Source: Actinomycetes bacterium
GTDB lineage: Bacteria > Actinomycetota > Acidimicrobiia > Acidimicrobiales > RAAP-2
Reading direction: 5' to 3'
DNA: 36,440 nt
Assembly (NCBI GenBank): GCA_021822565.1
Contig: JAKAQM010000013.1
Span: 1-36,440, forward strand
The translations under genes were made by a program, and so were the position numbers. Under the pieces are notes generated by a model. It was not told the origin of the DNA, ran no database searches, and saw nothing but the letters and a program-made list of their open reading frames with translations. Positions 19,297-26,247 of the stretch are shown here, one piece after another; the stretch's first letter is position 1, and every line of letters begins with the position of its first letter.

Positions 19297-20079
19297 TCAG
19301 TCGAGATCCACCACGACCACGGTGTGATCCGACGGCTTGTTCCCTTTCGGGCTCTTCTTGCGCGCGTCGCGGTCGATCACCGCGGAGACGGCACGCGCTG
19401 CAAGGGGCTGCGAGAGGAGCACGAGATCGATGCGCATGCCCATCCCCTTGTGGAAGCTCCCTGTCCGGTAGTCCCACCACGAGAAGATCCCACCGTCGGG
19501 ATGGAACCGGCGGAAGGTGTCCTCGAGGCCCCAGTCCAGGATCTCCCGGAGTGCACGGCGCTCGGGTTCGCTCACGTGGGTCGCTCCGGCGAGCGCCGCA
19601 GGATCCCAGACGTCCCTGTCGTCAGGAGCGACGTTGAAGTCGCCGCAGACGGCGACGGCGTCGTCGGGGCTGTCGTGCTCGGCAAGGTACGCACGTAACC
19701 GAGCCAGCCAGTCGAGCTTGTTGCGGTAGTGCTCGCTGCCGAGGCTCCTGCCGTTGGGCACGTAGACGGAGTGCACGCGGATCCCCGCACAGGTGGCTGC
19801 CAGCATCCGGCAGCCCTGCGCGTCCACCTCCGAGCCGAGGCCGGCGAGCGGCTCTTCGAGGCCGACGCGGCTCACGATCGCCACGCCGTTCCACCGGCCG
19901 TCGCCGTGATGCGCCGAGTCGTAGCCGATCTCCGCGAACGCGTCGGAGGGGAACGCGCTGTCCGCGAGCTTGGTCTCCTGCAGGCACAAGATGTCTGGGG
20001 CGTTCGCCTCGACCCACTCGACGACGAGCGGGAGCCGCGCACCCAGGGAGTTCACGTTCCAGGTCGCGAGCCGCACCAT
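19297..20079 (-). CDS. xthA: Exodeoxyribonuclease III
   Basis: MVRLATWNVNSLGARLPLVVEWVEANAPDILCLQETKLAD; GRWNGVAIVSR; CGDFNVAPDDRDVWDP; RIDLVLLSQPL; PSDHTVVVVDLD. Confidence 0.95.
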   Translation of the reverse strand: MVRLATWNVNSLGARLPLVVEWVEANAPDILCLQETKLADSAFPSDAFAEIGYDSAHHGDGRWNGVAIVSRVGLEEPLAGLGSEVDAQGCRMLAATCAGIRVHSVYVPNGRSLGSEHYRNKLDWLARLRAYLAEHDSPDDAVAVCGDFNVAPDDRDVWDPAALAGATHVSEPERRALREILDWGLEDTFRRFHPDGGIFSWWDYRTGSFHKGMGMRIDLVLLSQPLAARAVSAVIDRDARKKSPKGNKPSDHTVVVVDLD

Positions 20080-20081
20080 GC

Positions 20082-20501
20082 TCAATCCCGGTCGACGAGC
20101 ACGAAGAGCAGGTCGGCCTCGCAGGCGATCTTGCCGCCGACGTGCGCGTGCCCGTGACCCGAGCCCCCTCGCGCGGAGAGTCGGCCGACAGTGACCTCCA
20201 GCTCCAGGGTTTCTCCGGGCAGCACCTGTCGACGGAAGCGCGCCCGGTCCACTCCGCCGAAGAGCGGCAGCTTGCCGGTGAACCGCTCGTCTGCCAGCAC
20301 CGCGATACCACCGAGCTGGGCGAGGGACTCGAGCATCAAGACGCCCGGAAGGGTGGGGCGGCCCGGAAAGTGGCCCGCGAAGAACTGCTCCTCGCCCGTC
20401 AGGTGCCAACGCCCCGACGCCGCGCGCCCGGGCTCCACCGACACGACCTCGCTCACGAAGAGGAACGGATCACGGTGCGGGAGCACGTCGGCGGGTCGCA
20501 T
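20082..20501 (-). CDS. FabZ-like 3-hydroxyacyl-ACP dehydratase (hotdog fold)
   Basis: MRPADVLPHRDPFLFVSEVVSVEPGRAASGRWHLTGEEQFFAGHFPGRPTLPGVLMLESLAQLGGI. Confidence 0.88.
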   Translation of the reverse strand: MRPADVLPHRDPFLFVSEVVSVEPGRAASGRWHLTGEEQFFAGHFPGRPTLPGVLMLESLAQLGGIAVLADERFTGKLPLFGGVDRARFRRQVLPGETLELEVTVGRLSARGGSGHGHAHVGGKIACEADLLFVLVDRD

Positions 20502-20541: not shown

Positions 20542-22203
20542 TCACCTTCCCGCAGCGCCGTGCGCACCGACGAGCTCGGGGAGCGCGAGCTCCGCGACGC
20601 GGCGCGGAGGGTCGAGGGCGACGAGCACGAACCGCCGCCGCTCTCCTCGCTTCAGGACCTCGCGCGCCTTGGTCGGCGGTGGGTTGCCCATCGCGGTCAA
20701 GGGGATGTACGCGTGCAGGGACCCGCCATCGGGAAGGTCGACATCGACCATCGCGCCGTGCGAGGTGTAGGAGACCACTTCGCCTTCGAGCTCGCTGTCG
20801 AGTGGGTACGTCGCGACGAACGTGATGAACGCGAGCGGCTCGTTGACCGCAGGCGGTGGTGATGGAGCCCGCCGCCGGCGGCGCCGACCCGCCTTCCCTT
20901 CCCGGTTCCTCTCCTCTCCCCCACCTTGCTCGCTGCTTCCTCCGTCGCCGGCGGGGCTGGGGCCGATCACCTCGACGAGCGCTTGACCGATGGCCTCCTG
21001 GACCGCCGGATCATGCGCGGCAGTGCTGCGCGCCGCTCTTGCCGCCGCTGTCGCTCCGTTCGCGGCGGCTGCAGCCAGCCCCTCCGAACCGGCCACTGCC
21101 GTCGGCTCGCCGCTCTCGAGTGCCAGTTCTTTCTTCGCCGGCGCCTTCTTCGCAGCCGGCGCCTTCTTGGCAGCCGGCGCCTTCTTGGCAGCCGGCGCCT
21201 TCTTGGCAGCGGGCGCCTTCTTGGCAGCGGGCGCCTTCTTGGCAGCGGGCGCCTTCTTGGCAGCCGGCGCCTTCTTGGCAGCGGGCGCCTTCTTCGCCGG
21301 CGCCTTCTTGGCAGGCGAAGCCTTCTTCGTGGCAGGGGCGGCGTTCGTCGCCGGGGCTTCGGCCACCACCTCGTGCTCTTGCGCAGTGATCGCCTTCTTC
21401 GGTGCCACTCTCCTCTTCGCAGCGGTCGGCTCGGCCTCCTCCACGCCGGCGGCCACCTTCGCGCCCGCAGCCTTCTTCGCGCCCGCGGCCTTCTTCGCGC
21501 CGGCGGGCTCCTCCGCGTTCCCAGCCTTCACCGCCTTCTCGGCTTTCTTCGCGGGCTTCTTCGTGGCGGTCTCGGCCAGACTGCTCACCAGCGGCTCTTC
21601 GACCTTCCAGACATCGCCGATCTTCGGCTTCGAGCCGTCAGGGAAGACCGCTGCCGGCGCCTTGCGAACGGCGGTCTTCCTCGCCGCCTTCGCCAGCTCT
21701 GCCGCCTTGACCGTCGGTGACAGGTCCTCGGTCGCGCGGCGTTTGGCCTTCCCGGTGACCTGGCGGCTCTTCGGGCCGCGCACGGGGATGCGCGGCGTGA
21801 AGATCCACCCGACACCCGGTACGGGCTTCCCACCGATGAGCCTGCCCTCCTCGAAGAGCCAGGGGTGCTCGGCGTGGAACTCCTGGAAGGAGTCGTTGGA
21901 AAGCACGCGAGCACCGGTGCGCTCGGCGATACGAAGCACGAACGCGTCGCCGCGACCGATCGCTCCGGCCGGGGGCGACACCACCTCTCCGTGGAGCTCC
22001 GCATCGACCAGTTGGTCTCGCTCGGACGGGTCGATGCGATGCTCGAAGGAGGCATCCACCACCACGACGATCTCTGCAGCGGGATCCTCGGACGCGTACG
22101 CGCGGACGGCCTCGTCGAGCTGGCGCAGGCTCGGAGTGGTGCGGCCTTCGGTGGCGAGGTTCGATCCGTCGACCACGACCACGTGCCTACCGCGCACGGT
22201 CAC
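20542..22203 (-). CDS. NYN/PIN-like (Zc3h12a-type) putative RNase with histone-H1-like KKAPAA repeats and C-terminal S1-like OB domain
   Basis: N-term HVVVVDGSNLATEGRTTPSLRQLDEAV...IVVVVDASFEH...GRGDAFVLRIAERTGARVLSNDSFQEFHAEHPWLFEEGRL; middle Lys/Ala/Pro-rich (KKAPAA)n; C-term ITFVATYPLDSELEGEVVSYTSHGAMVDVDLPDGGSLHAYIPLTAMGNPPPTKAREVLKRGERRRFVLVALDPPRRVAELALPEL. Confidence 0.85.
   Translation of the reverse strand: MTVRGRHVVVVDGSNLATEGRTTPSLRQLDEAVRAYASEDPAAEIVVVVDASFEHRIDPSERDQLVDAELHGEVVSPPAGAIGRGDAFVLRIAERTGARVLSNDSFQEFHAEHPWLFEEGRLIGGKPVPGVGWIFTPRIPVRGPKSRQVTGKAKRRATEDLSPTVKAAELAKAARKTAVRKAPAAVFPDGSKPKIGDVWKVEEPLVSSLAETATKKPAKKAEKAVKAGNAEEPAGAKKAAGAKKAAGAKVAAGVEEAEPTAAKRRVAPKKAITAQEHEVVAEAPATNAAPATKKASPAKKAPAKKAPAAKKAPAAKKAPAAKKAPAAKKAPAAKKAPAAKKAPAAKKAPAAKKAPAKKELALESGEPTAVAGSEGLAAAAANGATAAARAARSTAAHDPAVQEAIGQALVEVIGPSPAGDGGSSEQGGGEERNREGKAGRRRRRRAPSPPPAVNEPLAFITFVATYPLDSELEGEVVSYTSHGAMVDVDLPDGGSLHAYIPLTAMGNPPPTKAREVLKRGERRRFVLVALDPPRRVAELALPELVGAHGAAGR
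21139..21312 (-). repeat. 18-bp tandem repeat encoding KKAPAA (about 8 full copies plus flanking degenerate copies)
   Basis: Plus-strand unit ggcgccttcttggcagc[c/g] repeated; flanked by cgccggcgccttctt variants. Confidence 0.95.
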
Positions 22204-22230
22204 GAGGCCACAGCCATGGGTGCTCCGACG

Positions 22231-25200
22231 TCAGCCGATTGCACGGTCGAGGAGGACAGCCTGCTCGAGCTGGTGCAGCGTGCCGCTCCCGGTCGCCGGG
22301 CTTGCAGACTCCCGGCGGCTCACGTGAAGGAGCGTGTAGCGGTCCCTCAAGATCCTGTGCAGCCGCGCGTGGACGAACGACCACGCACCCATGTTCTCGG
22401 GCTCCTCTTGGAGCCACACGATCTCGGTGGCAGCTGGGTAGCGTGCCAGGACGTCCCCGATGCGCCGTTCCGGCCAGGGGTAGAGCTGCTCCACGCGCAC
22501 GACCGCCACTTCTGACGCGGGGTGCGGCGACACTCGAGACGCGGCGACGGCAGGAGCAGGCCCTCCCCCGCTGACGCGCTCGTCGCGTCGCTGCATGGCC
22601 TCGTGAGCGATCTTCCCGCTGGCGAGCACGACGCGGCGCACGCGCGAGGCATCCGACACGGACGCATCGTCGAGGACTTCTGCGAAGGACCCGGACACCA
22701 GCTCGTCGATCGGCGAACGCGAGCGGGTGGCTCGGAGCATCGACTTGGGGGTGAAGACGACGAGCGGCGTCGCCGGCGTCCGTCTGGGCTGGGACCGCAG
22801 GAGGTGGAAGTACTGCGCCGCAGTGGACGGCACCACGACCCGGAGGTTGCCGCGTGCCGAGAGCGTCAGGAAGCGCTCGATCCTGGCCGAGGAGTGCTCC
22901 GGTCCCTGGCCTTCGTAGCCGTGGGGGAGCAGGAGCACGAGGCCGGCGTGCTGACCCCACTTGTCCTCGGCCGCGACGAGGAAGTTGTCGATGATGATGC
23001 TGGCCCCGTTCACGAAGTCGCCGAACTGCGCCTCCCAGGCGACGAGGGCGTCGGGAGCCTCCACCGAGTAGCCGTACTCGAAGCCGACGGCGGCGTACTC
23101 AGAGAGGAGCGAATCGCGCACGGTGAAACGACCGGGGCGGCCGCGCTCGGGATCCGCGAGGTCCCCCAGGTGCGCGAGGGGCACGTACTCGTGTCCGTTG
23201 CGGTAGTCGACGAGCACCGAGTGGCGCTGGCTGAACGTGCCACGCCTGGTGTCCTGGCCGGTGAGCCGCACGTCCACGCCGTCGACGAGCAGTGAGCCGA
23301 TCGCGAGATGCTCGGCAAGGGGCCAGTCGACCTGGCCCGAGGAGACGAGCGCCTCGCGGCTGGCGAATTGGCGTACCAGCTTCGGGTGGAGCGTGAAGCC
23401 CTCCGGCACGGCCGTGGTGCGACGGGACAGCTCGACGAGCAGCGGCCGCCCGACGCCCGTCTCCACGGACGGAACCTCTGGCCCGGCCTTGTCGTCGGCG
23501 TCTTCGTCCACCATTCCGATCGATGCCGGCGGTGGGGGCGGCGCGGCCCGGACCTCGTCGAGGACTGCCTGGAGCTGCGCGTTGAACGCGTCGAGCGCCT
23601 TCTCGGCCTGCTCGAGGGTGAGATCGCCGCGGCGGACGAGCGTCTCGGTGTAGAGCTTGCGCACCGACCGCTTGGCGTCGATGCGCTGGTACATGAGGGG
23701 CTGCGTGTAGCTGGGGTCGTCGCCTTCGTTGTGCCCGTGGCGCCGGTAGGTCACGAGGTCGATGACCACGTCCTTGTGGAACTCTTGGCGGAAGCGGAAC
23801 GCAAGGCGGGCCGCCCGCATGCAGGCCTCGGGATCGTCGCCGTTGACATGGAAGATGGGAGCCTGCACCATCTTGGCCACGTCCGTCGGATAGACGGAGC
23901 TGCGTGCAGCGCCGGGGGCCGTCGTGAACCCGAGCTGGTTGTTCACCACGACGTGCACCGTCCCGCCGACGTGGTAGCCCGAGAGCGCCGAGAGGTTCAG
24001 CGTCTCGGCCACGACCCCCTGCCCGGCGAAGGCTGCGTCCCCGTGGACGAGCACCGGCAGGACGGGGAAGGTGATCGCCCCCTGGGCGGCGATCCCGGCG
24101 GGCGTGCCGTCGCTCGGCGGGAGGAAGTGATCCTGCTTCGCCCGCGCCATCCCTTCGACGACCGGGTCCACCGCTTCCAGGTGGGAGGGGTTCGAGGCCA
24201 TGGTCACCGCGAGCTCGAGGCCCGAGGGGCCGGTGAACTTCCCACTCGCACCCTTGTGGTATTTCACGTCTCCAGACCCCTGCACCGATTCGGGGTCGAG
24301 GATGCCTTCGAACTCCTCGAAGATCTCCCGGTAGGACTTTCCGACGATGTTGGCCAGCACGTTCAGCCGGCCGCGGTGGGCCATGCCGAGCACAGCCTCG
24401 ACGGCACCGCCGCGTGCCGCGTCGTCGAGGAGCGTGTCGAGGACGACGATGAGCGACTCTGCGCCTTCGAGCCCGAAGCGCTTCTGGCCCACGTAGCGGC
24501 TGTGCAAGAAGCGTTCGAAGACCTCAGCGGCGTTCAGCCGGTCGAGGATGTGCCGCTGCTCCTCGGGGGTGATCGTCTGGTCGACACCTTCCACGTGCTC
24601 CTGGATCCACCGCTTCTGCGCCGGGTCCTGGATGTGCATGTACTCGATGCCGAGCGTCCTGCAGTAGGCGTCACGCAGGATGTGGAGGATCTCGTCGAGC
24701 GTGGCCCAGTCGCGCCCGGCGAGCCCGTCGGTGACGAAGCGGCGTGGCAGGTCCCAGATGCTGAGGCCGTAGGTGAGCGGGTCCAGCTCGGGATGGATCC
24801 TCGGCGGCTCGGCATCGAGCGGATCCAGGTGGGCGATCAGGTGGCCGCGGACCCTGTACATGTTGATGAGGGTCTGGACATGGACCTGCTTCACGAGGCG
24901 GTCCTGCTCCCGGTCCTCCGTCGTCGAACGGTCGGCGTGCCAACGCTCAGCCTTGTACGGCACGCCCATCGACTCGAAGACCTCGTCGTAGAAGTCGTGG
25001 CCGCCGGTCAGGCACTCGGCGACGTGGGCGAGGAAGAGGCCCGACTCTGCCCCCTGGATGATGCGGTGGTCATAGGTCGACGTCAGGGTCACGACGCGGC
25101 CCACCCCGAGCTCGGCGAGCAGGCGAGGATCGGCTGCCTCGAAGCCCGCAGGGCTGGAGATCGCCCCCACTCCCACGATCACGCCCTGCCCCGGCATGAG

Positions 25201-26247
25201 CCGGGGTACGGACTGCGCCGTGCCGAGCGTCCCGGGGTTCGTGAGGCTCACGGTCACCCCGGCAAAGTCGTCCGGGCTCACGTTCCCGGAGTGCACCTTA
25301 CGGACGAGCTCTTCGTAGGCGAGGACGAACTCCCGGAAGTCCAACGTGTCGGCGTTCTTCACACAGGGGACCATGAGGGTGCGCGACCCGCCCGGGCGCT
25401 CCACGTCGACCGCGAGCCCCAGCCCGAGGTGCGCGTGGTGGACCACTCCGGGCATCACGCGCCCGTCGGCTCCCTGCTCTTCGACGTAGGAGGAATTCAG
25501 CACCGGCACTGCGCCCAGCCCCCGGACGACCGCGTAGCCGATGAGATGGGTGAAGCTGACCTTCGCCCCGGTCGTCCGAGCCAGCTGGTCGTTCAGGATC
25601 CTGCGGTTGACCTCGAGCAGCGTGGCAGGGACCGTCCGAACACTCGTCGCAGTAGGGACGGCGAGGCTCGCGGTCATGTTCACGGCGATCCGGGACGCCG
25701 CGCCGCGCAGGGGGACCAGCTGGTCGCCCGAAGCTTCCGCACGCTCGGGTCCGGTCGTCGACGCGCCCGCCTTCCCCGTCCCCTCGCGTACCTGGGTGCC
25801 CGACCCGGCGGCACTCGCCGGGGAAGGCGTGACCGGCGCTCCAGCTGCCGGCGCACCCACACCCGCTGGTGCGGCAGGTGCACCAGGAGGCGGCTCGTTC
25901 ACGACGGGCGGCGCAGTCGCCCACTCCGCGGGCACGGCGACGTGGCCGTTCTCCTGGCGCACCCCCCCGGGCGAGGCAGCCACGCCCTCGGGCTCGGTGG
26001 CCACCTCGCTCGACAGCTCTTTCTGCGCGACCTCCCTCGCGAGGGCGTCCATGGGGGCGGGGAGGGGCGCGGGGCGGTAATCCGCGAAGAAATCCTGCCA
26101 GCTCTCGGCGACGGAGCCGGGATCGGCGAGGTACCGCTCGTACATGTCGTCGACGAGCCACGCGTTGGGCCCGAACGCGCCGTCCGATGGGCGACGTGCC
26201 GGCGCAGCTGCCGCCCGTCGGCGGTCCTGTGGTCCGGACGAATTCAT
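22231..26247 (-). CDS. kgd: Multifunctional 2-oxoglutarate decarboxylase/dehydrogenase E1 with N-terminal succinyltransferase domain
   Basis: N-term FGPNAWLVDDMYERYLADPGSVAESWQDFFADYRP; E2-like VSFTHLIGYAVVRGL...STYDHRIIQGAESG; E1 GMAHRGRLNVLANIVGKSYREIFEEFEG...HLEAVDPVVEGMARAKQD...HGDAAFAGQGVVAETLNLSALSGYHVGGTVHVVVNNQLGFTT. Confidence 0.97.
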   Translation of the reverse strand: MNSSGPQDRRRAAAAPARRPSDGAFGPNAWLVDDMYERYLADPGSVAESWQDFFADYRPAPLPAPMDALAREVAQKELSSEVATEPEGVAASPGGVRQENGHVAVPAEWATAPPVVNEPPPGAPAAPAGVGAPAAGAPVTPSPASAAGSGTQVREGTGKAGASTTGPERAEASGDQLVPLRGAASRIAVNMTASLAVPTATSVRTVPATLLEVNRRILNDQLARTTGAKVSFTHLIGYAVVRGLGAVPVLNSSYVEEQGADGRVMPGVVHHAHLGLGLAVDVERPGGSRTLMVPCVKNADTLDFREFVLAYEELVRKVHSGNVSPDDFAGVTVSLTNPGTLGTAQSVPRLMPGQGVIVGVGAISSPAGFEAADPRLLAELGVGRVVTLTSTYDHRIIQGAESGLFLAHVAECLTGGHDFYDEVFESMGVPYKAERWHADRSTTEDREQDRLVKQVHVQTLINMYRVRGHLIAHLDPLDAEPPRIHPELDPLTYGLSIWDLPRRFVTDGLAGRDWATLDEILHILRDAYCRTLGIEYMHIQDPAQKRWIQEHVEGVDQTITPEEQRHILDRLNAAEVFERFLHSRYVGQKRFGLEGAESLIVVLDTLLDDAARGGAVEAVLGMAHRGRLNVLANIVGKSYREIFEEFEGILDPESVQGSGDVKYHKGASGKFTGPSGLELAVTMASNPSHLEAVDPVVEGMARAKQDHFLPPSDGTPAGIAAQGAITFPVLPVLVHGDAAFAGQGVVAETLNLSALSGYHVGGTVHVVVNNQLGFTTAPGAARSSVYPTDVAKMVQAPIFHVNGDDPEACMRAARLAFRFRQEFHKDVVIDLVTYRRHGHNEGDDPSYTQPLMYQRIDAKRSVRKLYTETLVRRGDLTLEQAEKALDAFNAQLQAVLDEVRAAPPPPPASIGMVDEDADDKAGPEVPSVETGVGRPLLVELSRRTTAVPEGFTLHPKLVRQFASREALVSSGQVDWPLAEHLAIGSLLVDGVDVRLTGQDTRRGTFSQRHSVLVDYRNGHEYVPLAHLGDLADPERGRPGRFTVRDSLLSEYAAVGFEYGYSVEAPDALVAWEAQFGDFVNGASIIIDNFLVAAEDKWGQHAGLVLLLPHGYEGQGPEHSSARIERFLTLSARGNLRVVVPSTAAQYFHLLRSQPRRTPATPLVVFTPKSMLRATRSRSPIDELVSGSFAEVLDDASVSDASRVRRVVLASGKIAHEAMQRRDERVSGGGPAPAVAASRVSPHPASEVAVVRVEQLYPWPERRIGDVLARYPAATEIVWLQEEPENMGAWSFVHARLHRILRDRYTLLHVSRRESASPATGSGTLHQLEQAVLLDRAIG

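Follow-up and report, generated by a model that had tools for sequence, protein, structure and literature searches.

Organization of the locus

The window, i.e. the whole stretch of 36,440 nucleotides analysed here, comes from an Actinomycetes bacterium of the class Acidimicrobiia; the host group consists of actinobacteria from soil and freshwater that have received little study. At positions 20542..22203 of the minus strand it carries a gene for a protein of 553 aa, in which a NYN domain of the Zc3h12a type, a polybasic linker and an S1 domain follow one another (NYN-S1), as defined by the open reading frame, the PF11977 and S1 matches and a class-wide family of homologs. The gene starts with GTG at 22203 and its stop codon ends at 20542, and the frame of the plus strand across 20542-22203 contains stops. 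A sequence-only reading of this DNA had already placed a gene of 553 aa at 20542-22203, and both the coordinates and the length were borne out, with the strand now refined to minus. Two antisense ORFs of the plus strand (20990-22327 and 20926-21720) were regarded as shadows of the repeat, and the NCBIfam match to the IgA-binding protein BAC (15.6 bits vs a cut-off of 1700) and the phmmer matches to photosystem and azurin chains, both of which fall within the low-complexity tract, were dismissed.

The synteny analysis showed that the gene lies among metabolic genes. The conserved upstream neighbour encodes 2-oxoglutarate dehydrogenase E1/E2 (kgd, 22231..26247, minus strand), which was present at 71 of 80 related loci and in 48 of them ended within about 150 nt upstream of the NYN-S1 start. 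Downstream, on the same minus strand, are the genes for a FabZ-like dehydratase (20082..20501) and an exonuclease III (xth)-like protein (19297..20079), both named from reading of the sequence and with their starts placed by eye. The common order kgd - NYN-S1 - fabZ-like - xth suggests co-transcription rather than a toxin-antitoxin module. NYN-S1 is chromosomal, normally occurs as one copy per genome and has been kept by genomes as small as 1.4-2 Mb.

The N-terminal NYN domain and its active site

The NYN/PIN nuclease domain comprises residues 6-143 (21775..22188, minus strand), which matched PF11977 RNase_Zc3h12a with an E-value of 1.8e-7, the score of 31.5 bits exceeding the cut-off of 23. 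In the Pfam scan of the whole protein no family besides PF11977 exceeded its cut-off, and so no PPR domain was found; all 18 members of the NYN-S1 family that were scanned matched PF11977. The profile search against the PDB recovered ZC3H12A, ZC3H12B, ZC3H12C and KHNYN at 8e-6 to 1e-4. The domain was modelled by AlphaFold2 from a 47-row alignment with a mean pLDDT of 90.4 and a pTM of 0.84, and the Foldseek search of this model gave RNA-bound ZC3H12B as the best PDB match (E 7e-7), followed by ZC3H12C and MCPIP1 (ZC3H12A) and then by PRORP1/2 and KHNYN. The model has the PIN-like alpha/beta fold of the ZC3H12 proteins. The PIN/NYN fold proposed for the N-terminal end in the first reading was thus recovered by both structural methods, the motifs on which it was based (VVVDGSN, VVVDASF, GRGDAF and SNDSFQEF) are all found in the protein, and the subtype is Zc3h12a/PRORP-like. 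To our knowledge, all NYN nucleases of the Zc3h12a type characterised to date come from animals.

The acidic residues, whose loss across homologs would have spoken against a nuclease, are retained in all the sequences examined, as D12, N15, E19, D50, R84, G85, D86, N103, D104, Q107, E108 and H110 are invariant in 81/81. In the HMM alignment, Asp12 (VDGSN; 22168..22170, minus strand) stands at the first Asp of the tetra-Asp motif and aligns with D141 of MCPIP1 and D443 of KHNYN (PMC12709174), Gly85-Asp86 (GRGDAF; 21946..21951, minus strand) at the eukaryotic DD pair, and Asp104 (SNDSFQEF; 21892..21894, minus strand) at the fourth Asp; in the profile alignment to ZC3H12A these residues fall on D, DD and SND, respectively. 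The second Asp alone of the DD pair is retained, and the HMM alignment reads 'Gdaf' over 'DDRF'. In KHNYN the tetra-Asp motif is made up of D443, D524, D525 and D543; a single Mg ion is bound by D524 together with D525, and mutation of D443 or of D524/D525 leaves KHNYN impaired or dead (PMC12709174). The second Asp of this motif, D524 in KHNYN and D279 in ZC3H12B, is an Mg ligand (PMC12709174), and the present family has Gly85 at the equivalent position in each of the 81 sequences. Three of the four Asp are thus found here, a complete site being a trait of the characterised animal enzymes which the Pfam definition does not demand. On the other hand, the family has an extra invariant acid of its own, Asp50 (VVVDA; 22054..22056, minus strand; 81/81), at the end of the second strand (strand 43-48 in the AlphaFold model), which may participate in metal binding and possibly compensates for the missing Asp.

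The occurrence of Gly at an Mg-ligand position in all 81 sequences makes the catalytic competence uncertain, and this is the main point for a pseudonuclease, i.e. a NYN domain that has lost catalysis and serves in RNA binding or scaffolding alongside the S1 domain and the basic tract; RNA chaperones and ribosome-associated factors would be examples of such a role. We consider such a protein unlikely, because three of four Asp, Asn15, Glu108 and the extra Asp50 are invariant in 81/81, which is more than expected if catalysis were lost; short paralogs of the same class, by contrast, appear degenerate at these sites. Given the domain identity and the conserved acids, the NYN domain is likely, but not certain, to be active as a nuclease.

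The short NYN paralogs, which lack S1 and are about 150-190 aa long, were observed in related genomes (L173:208-663; L174:144-608, minus strand; L175:179-757, minus strand). The first Asp is retained in them (LLDADT/LVDADS), the Asn and the GRGD motif are gone, and their sequences suggest degenerate relatives that may be inactive.

The C-terminal S1 domain and distribution of the fusion

The S1 RNA-binding (OB-fold) domain covers residues ~456-541 (20581..20838, minus strand). The window protein alone matched PF00575 with an E-value of 0.012, under the cut-off, and all 16 family members scanned matched it (best 5e-9); the family profile matched ribosomal protein S1 (bS1) at 1.4e-24. Matches of the S1 profile to Pizza proteins, which cover about 30 residues, were regarded as chance. 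The AlphaFold2 model of the domain (pLDDT 92.7, pTM 0.83) has a five-strand OB fold, its best Foldseek matches were the ribosomal S1 domains of bS1, and the S1/OB-like segment suspected at this end from the letters alone is indeed an S1 fold. The SHGA motif is invariant, and D..RR is conserved at the last strand.

The joining of the two domains is a family trait. Among 296 sampled Acidimicrobiia genomes the NYN domain was found in 90. Beside the own genome, these are all 18 others sampled from its family, 55 from the order and 16 from the remainder of the class; the S1 query matched 89 of the 296, nearly the same set. In most genomes both matches share one open frame, the exceptions being frames cut at contig ends and genome G205, and the order NYN then S1 is kept across the class. 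The named relatives include Acidimicrobiaceae, Acidimicrobiales, Aciditerrimonas, Acidiferrimicrobium and Candidatus Microthrix. The search of a phylum sample of 397 genomes gave 28 matches, all inside the class and none outside, PF11977 had no match in any sampled Actinomycetota genome outside the class, and the score exceeded the cut-off in 20/20 genomes with a PF11977 match. No relative of NYN-S1 was found in the viral contigs searched. At least 20 genomes of the same order are without the gene, and since many genomes of the class lack it, NYN-S1 is not indispensable.

Two departures from the common architecture were seen. In G205 the NYN match (C4:70328-70768, a frame of 167 aa) and the S1 match (C80:10554-10787) lie on different contigs, which may be due to a break in the assembly, to a fortuitous S1 match or to a genuine split. 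The frame at L128:5995-6930 departs from the family after the linker and has no SHGA, probably as a result of a frameshift in the metagenome assembly.

A polybasic region of variable position

The two domains of the window protein are separated by a linker of 312 aa (residues 144-455; 20839..21774, minus strand), which is basic, rich in Ala, Lys and Pro, of net charge +36 and, as its composition suggests, probably disordered. Its core is built from an 18-bp unit repeated 10.8 times in tandem, which codes for (KKAPAA)n and was located by Tandem Repeats Finder at 21137..21327 (minus strand). The sequence-only reading had spoken of about 150+ residues of Lys/Ala/Pro repeats; the unbroken (KKAPAA)n run is 58 residues long (299-356) and lies inside the basic linker.

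For 69 homologs the charge was measured in everything that lies outside the NYN and S1 folds, and it was net positive in every one of them (+10 to +64, median +29), whereas the joined NYN and S1 cores were acidic in most cases (median -8, range -15 to +2). The basic part was placed in the linker in 51 homologs, mainly in the tail in 13 and in both in 5; the 13 tail-type homologs have a short linker and a basic tail of 146-470 residues after S1. On the tree of the folded domains the placement requires at least six changes, and it is clustered, shuffles averaging 16.9. The Ala/Pro-rich linkers of the neighbouring kgd proteins, taken as a control at 15 loci only, had net charges of -7 to 0.

The polybasic tract could be a functionless, neutral by-product of slippage in GC-rich tandem repeats, a view that concerns the tract only and is compatible with the explanation of the domains given below. 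The 18-bp array in the core of the window protein and the different linker lengths of close relatives are in its favour, but we regard it as rather unlikely, as the gene contains 52 Lys codons, which are AT-rich, despite the 72% GC of the window, the net charge is positive in 69/69, the repeat sequences vary between homologs, the tract is found after S1 where the linker is short, and the A/P-rich kgd linkers of the same loci are not basic.

A C-terminal tail of the KKAPAA type is also carried by this genome's DNA topoisomerase I (L002; G000:C143:5198-5428). The lysine repeats of actinobacterial TopA bind DNA, stabilise TopA there and raise its processivity (PMC7398561). Both the TopA tail and the presence of positive charge independent of position strengthen the earlier idea of a tether and support a putative electrostatic one, while they are silent on RNA versus DNA. 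Indeed, the polybasic region could prefer DNA, which is a point against an RNA-directed enzyme, and the H1-like lysine repeats of TopA together with xth as a conserved neighbour would fit a DNA-directed nuclease or a nucleoid protein, targeted to DNA by its histone-like tract and acting in repair with the neighbouring exonuclease III. This reading is nevertheless improbable in our view: kgd and the fabZ-like gene are equally conserved neighbours, which points to a mixed housekeeping operon. Characterised members of the Zc3h12a/PRORP NYN group and of S1 are, moreover, RNA-directed.

Two further features of the linker were recognised. A helix-like motif AIGQALVEVI (residues 404-413; 20965..20994, minus strand) conforms to the pattern AIxxAxxE(A/V)(I/V/L), which a regular-expression count found in the linker of 32/69 homologs, in all three placement types, against 0.45 in residue shuffles, figures that do not amount to a probability, because the pattern was chosen after viewing the rows and the rows are related. 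An Arg cluster RRRRRR (residues 440-445; 20869..20886, minus strand) lies just before S1, and a cluster of at least four Arg within eight residues was counted ahead of S1 in 38/69 homologs. Judging from their sequences, the helix-like motif may be a docking site for a partner, and the Arg cluster a patch that grips RNA.

Proposed function

The genome that carries the window also contains RNase P RNA (208 bits), and RNase E/G was found in 281 of the 296 class genomes, including nearly all NYN-S1 carriers; replacement of RNase E by NYN-S1 was rejected on the latter count. The predicted RNase would therefore be an additional one and not a replacement. Genome G190, one contig of 95% completeness, has NYN-S1 and no RNase E/G match, a possible loss of RNase E/G. 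The fold similarity to PIN and PRORP proteins might also recall a VapC-like toxin or a PRORP-type replacement of RNase P, but neither is credible, since the protein has 553 aa instead of the size of a small PIN protein, is mostly single copy and conserved, lies next to metabolic genes with kgd, fabZ-like and xth as its conserved neighbours rather than an antitoxin gene, and showed no PPR domain in the Pfam scan, in a genome that keeps its RNase P RNA.

Our best explanation, to which we assign a probability of roughly 0.7, is that the gene encodes a chromosomal, accessory and metal-dependent NYN endoribonuclease, equipped with an S1 domain for RNA binding and a polycationic tether, which acts in RNA decay or processing. 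The folds, the conserved acids and the domain order all support the original suggestion of an RNase with a built-in tether and an RNA-binding domain; the catalysis, RNA as the substrate, the function of the tether and the cellular role are inferred. The Zc3h12a/PRORP-type NYN domain would serve as a metal-dependent endoribonuclease, and the S1 domain would bind RNA in single-stranded form, which may be mRNA close to the ribosome. The polycationic region, as linker or as tail, would be an electrostatic tether that raises affinity for and residence time on the polyanion and enables the folded core, itself acidic, to act on RNA. The enzyme would act beside RNase E/G and RNase P, not in their stead. 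A more specific and only tentative proposal is a class-specific bacterial counterpart of Regnase, in which a three-Asp (+Asp50) NYN endoribonuclease, S1, a movable polycationic tether and the helix-like docking motif would together target mRNA or rRNA and might seed an RNA-decay assembly distinct from the degradosomes of RNase E and of RNase J.

NYN-S1 may thus add an RNase to RNA decay in its host group. The bacterial fusion offers a simple system in which to study the guidance of PIN-type nucleases by RNA-binding modules and by polycationic disorder, and its invariant Gly-for-Asp makes the metal chemistry of the NYN fold directly testable.

Comparison with known systems

Our literature searches, whose coverage was incomplete, returned no description of a NYN-S1 protein and no characterised member, and automatic annotation probably already names it a NYN-domain protein. 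The closest likeness is to the animal endoribonucleases ZC3H12A-D (Regnase/MCPIP) and KHNYN, with which it shares the PF11977-type NYN/PIN fold, the first Asp, the Asn, the latter Asp of DD and the Asp of SND, as well as the logic of a nuclease plus an RNA-binding module. Unlike them, it is bacterial, has S1 in place of the CCCH zinc finger or KH as the RNA-binding module, carries Gly at one tetra-Asp residue and the extra invariant Asp50, and contains a polybasic low-complexity region. The metallonuclease domain of PRORP is a fold match (Foldseek E 3e-6), but NYN-S1 has S1 and no PPR domain was found in it, and its genome keeps RNase P RNA. The S1 OB-fold with D..RR conserved at the last strand resembles that of bS1, PNPase and GSP13, from which it differs by the single copy, the family-specific SHGA and the fusion to a nuclease. 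The polybasic tract has the same K/A/P repeat composition as the tails of actinobacterial topoisomerase I and HU (HupB), yet it is joined to a predicted RNase, either between its domains or as a C-terminal tail. DIS3/Rrp44 and PIN-TRAM proteins likewise combine a PIN nuclease with OB-fold RNA-binding domains, but belong to other PIN subfamilies and have other partner domains, and we know of no comparable polybasic tract in them. The individual parts are known. New are the way they are combined, the restriction of this architecture to one class, the basic region that changes its place and the Gly that replaces an Asp of the active site.
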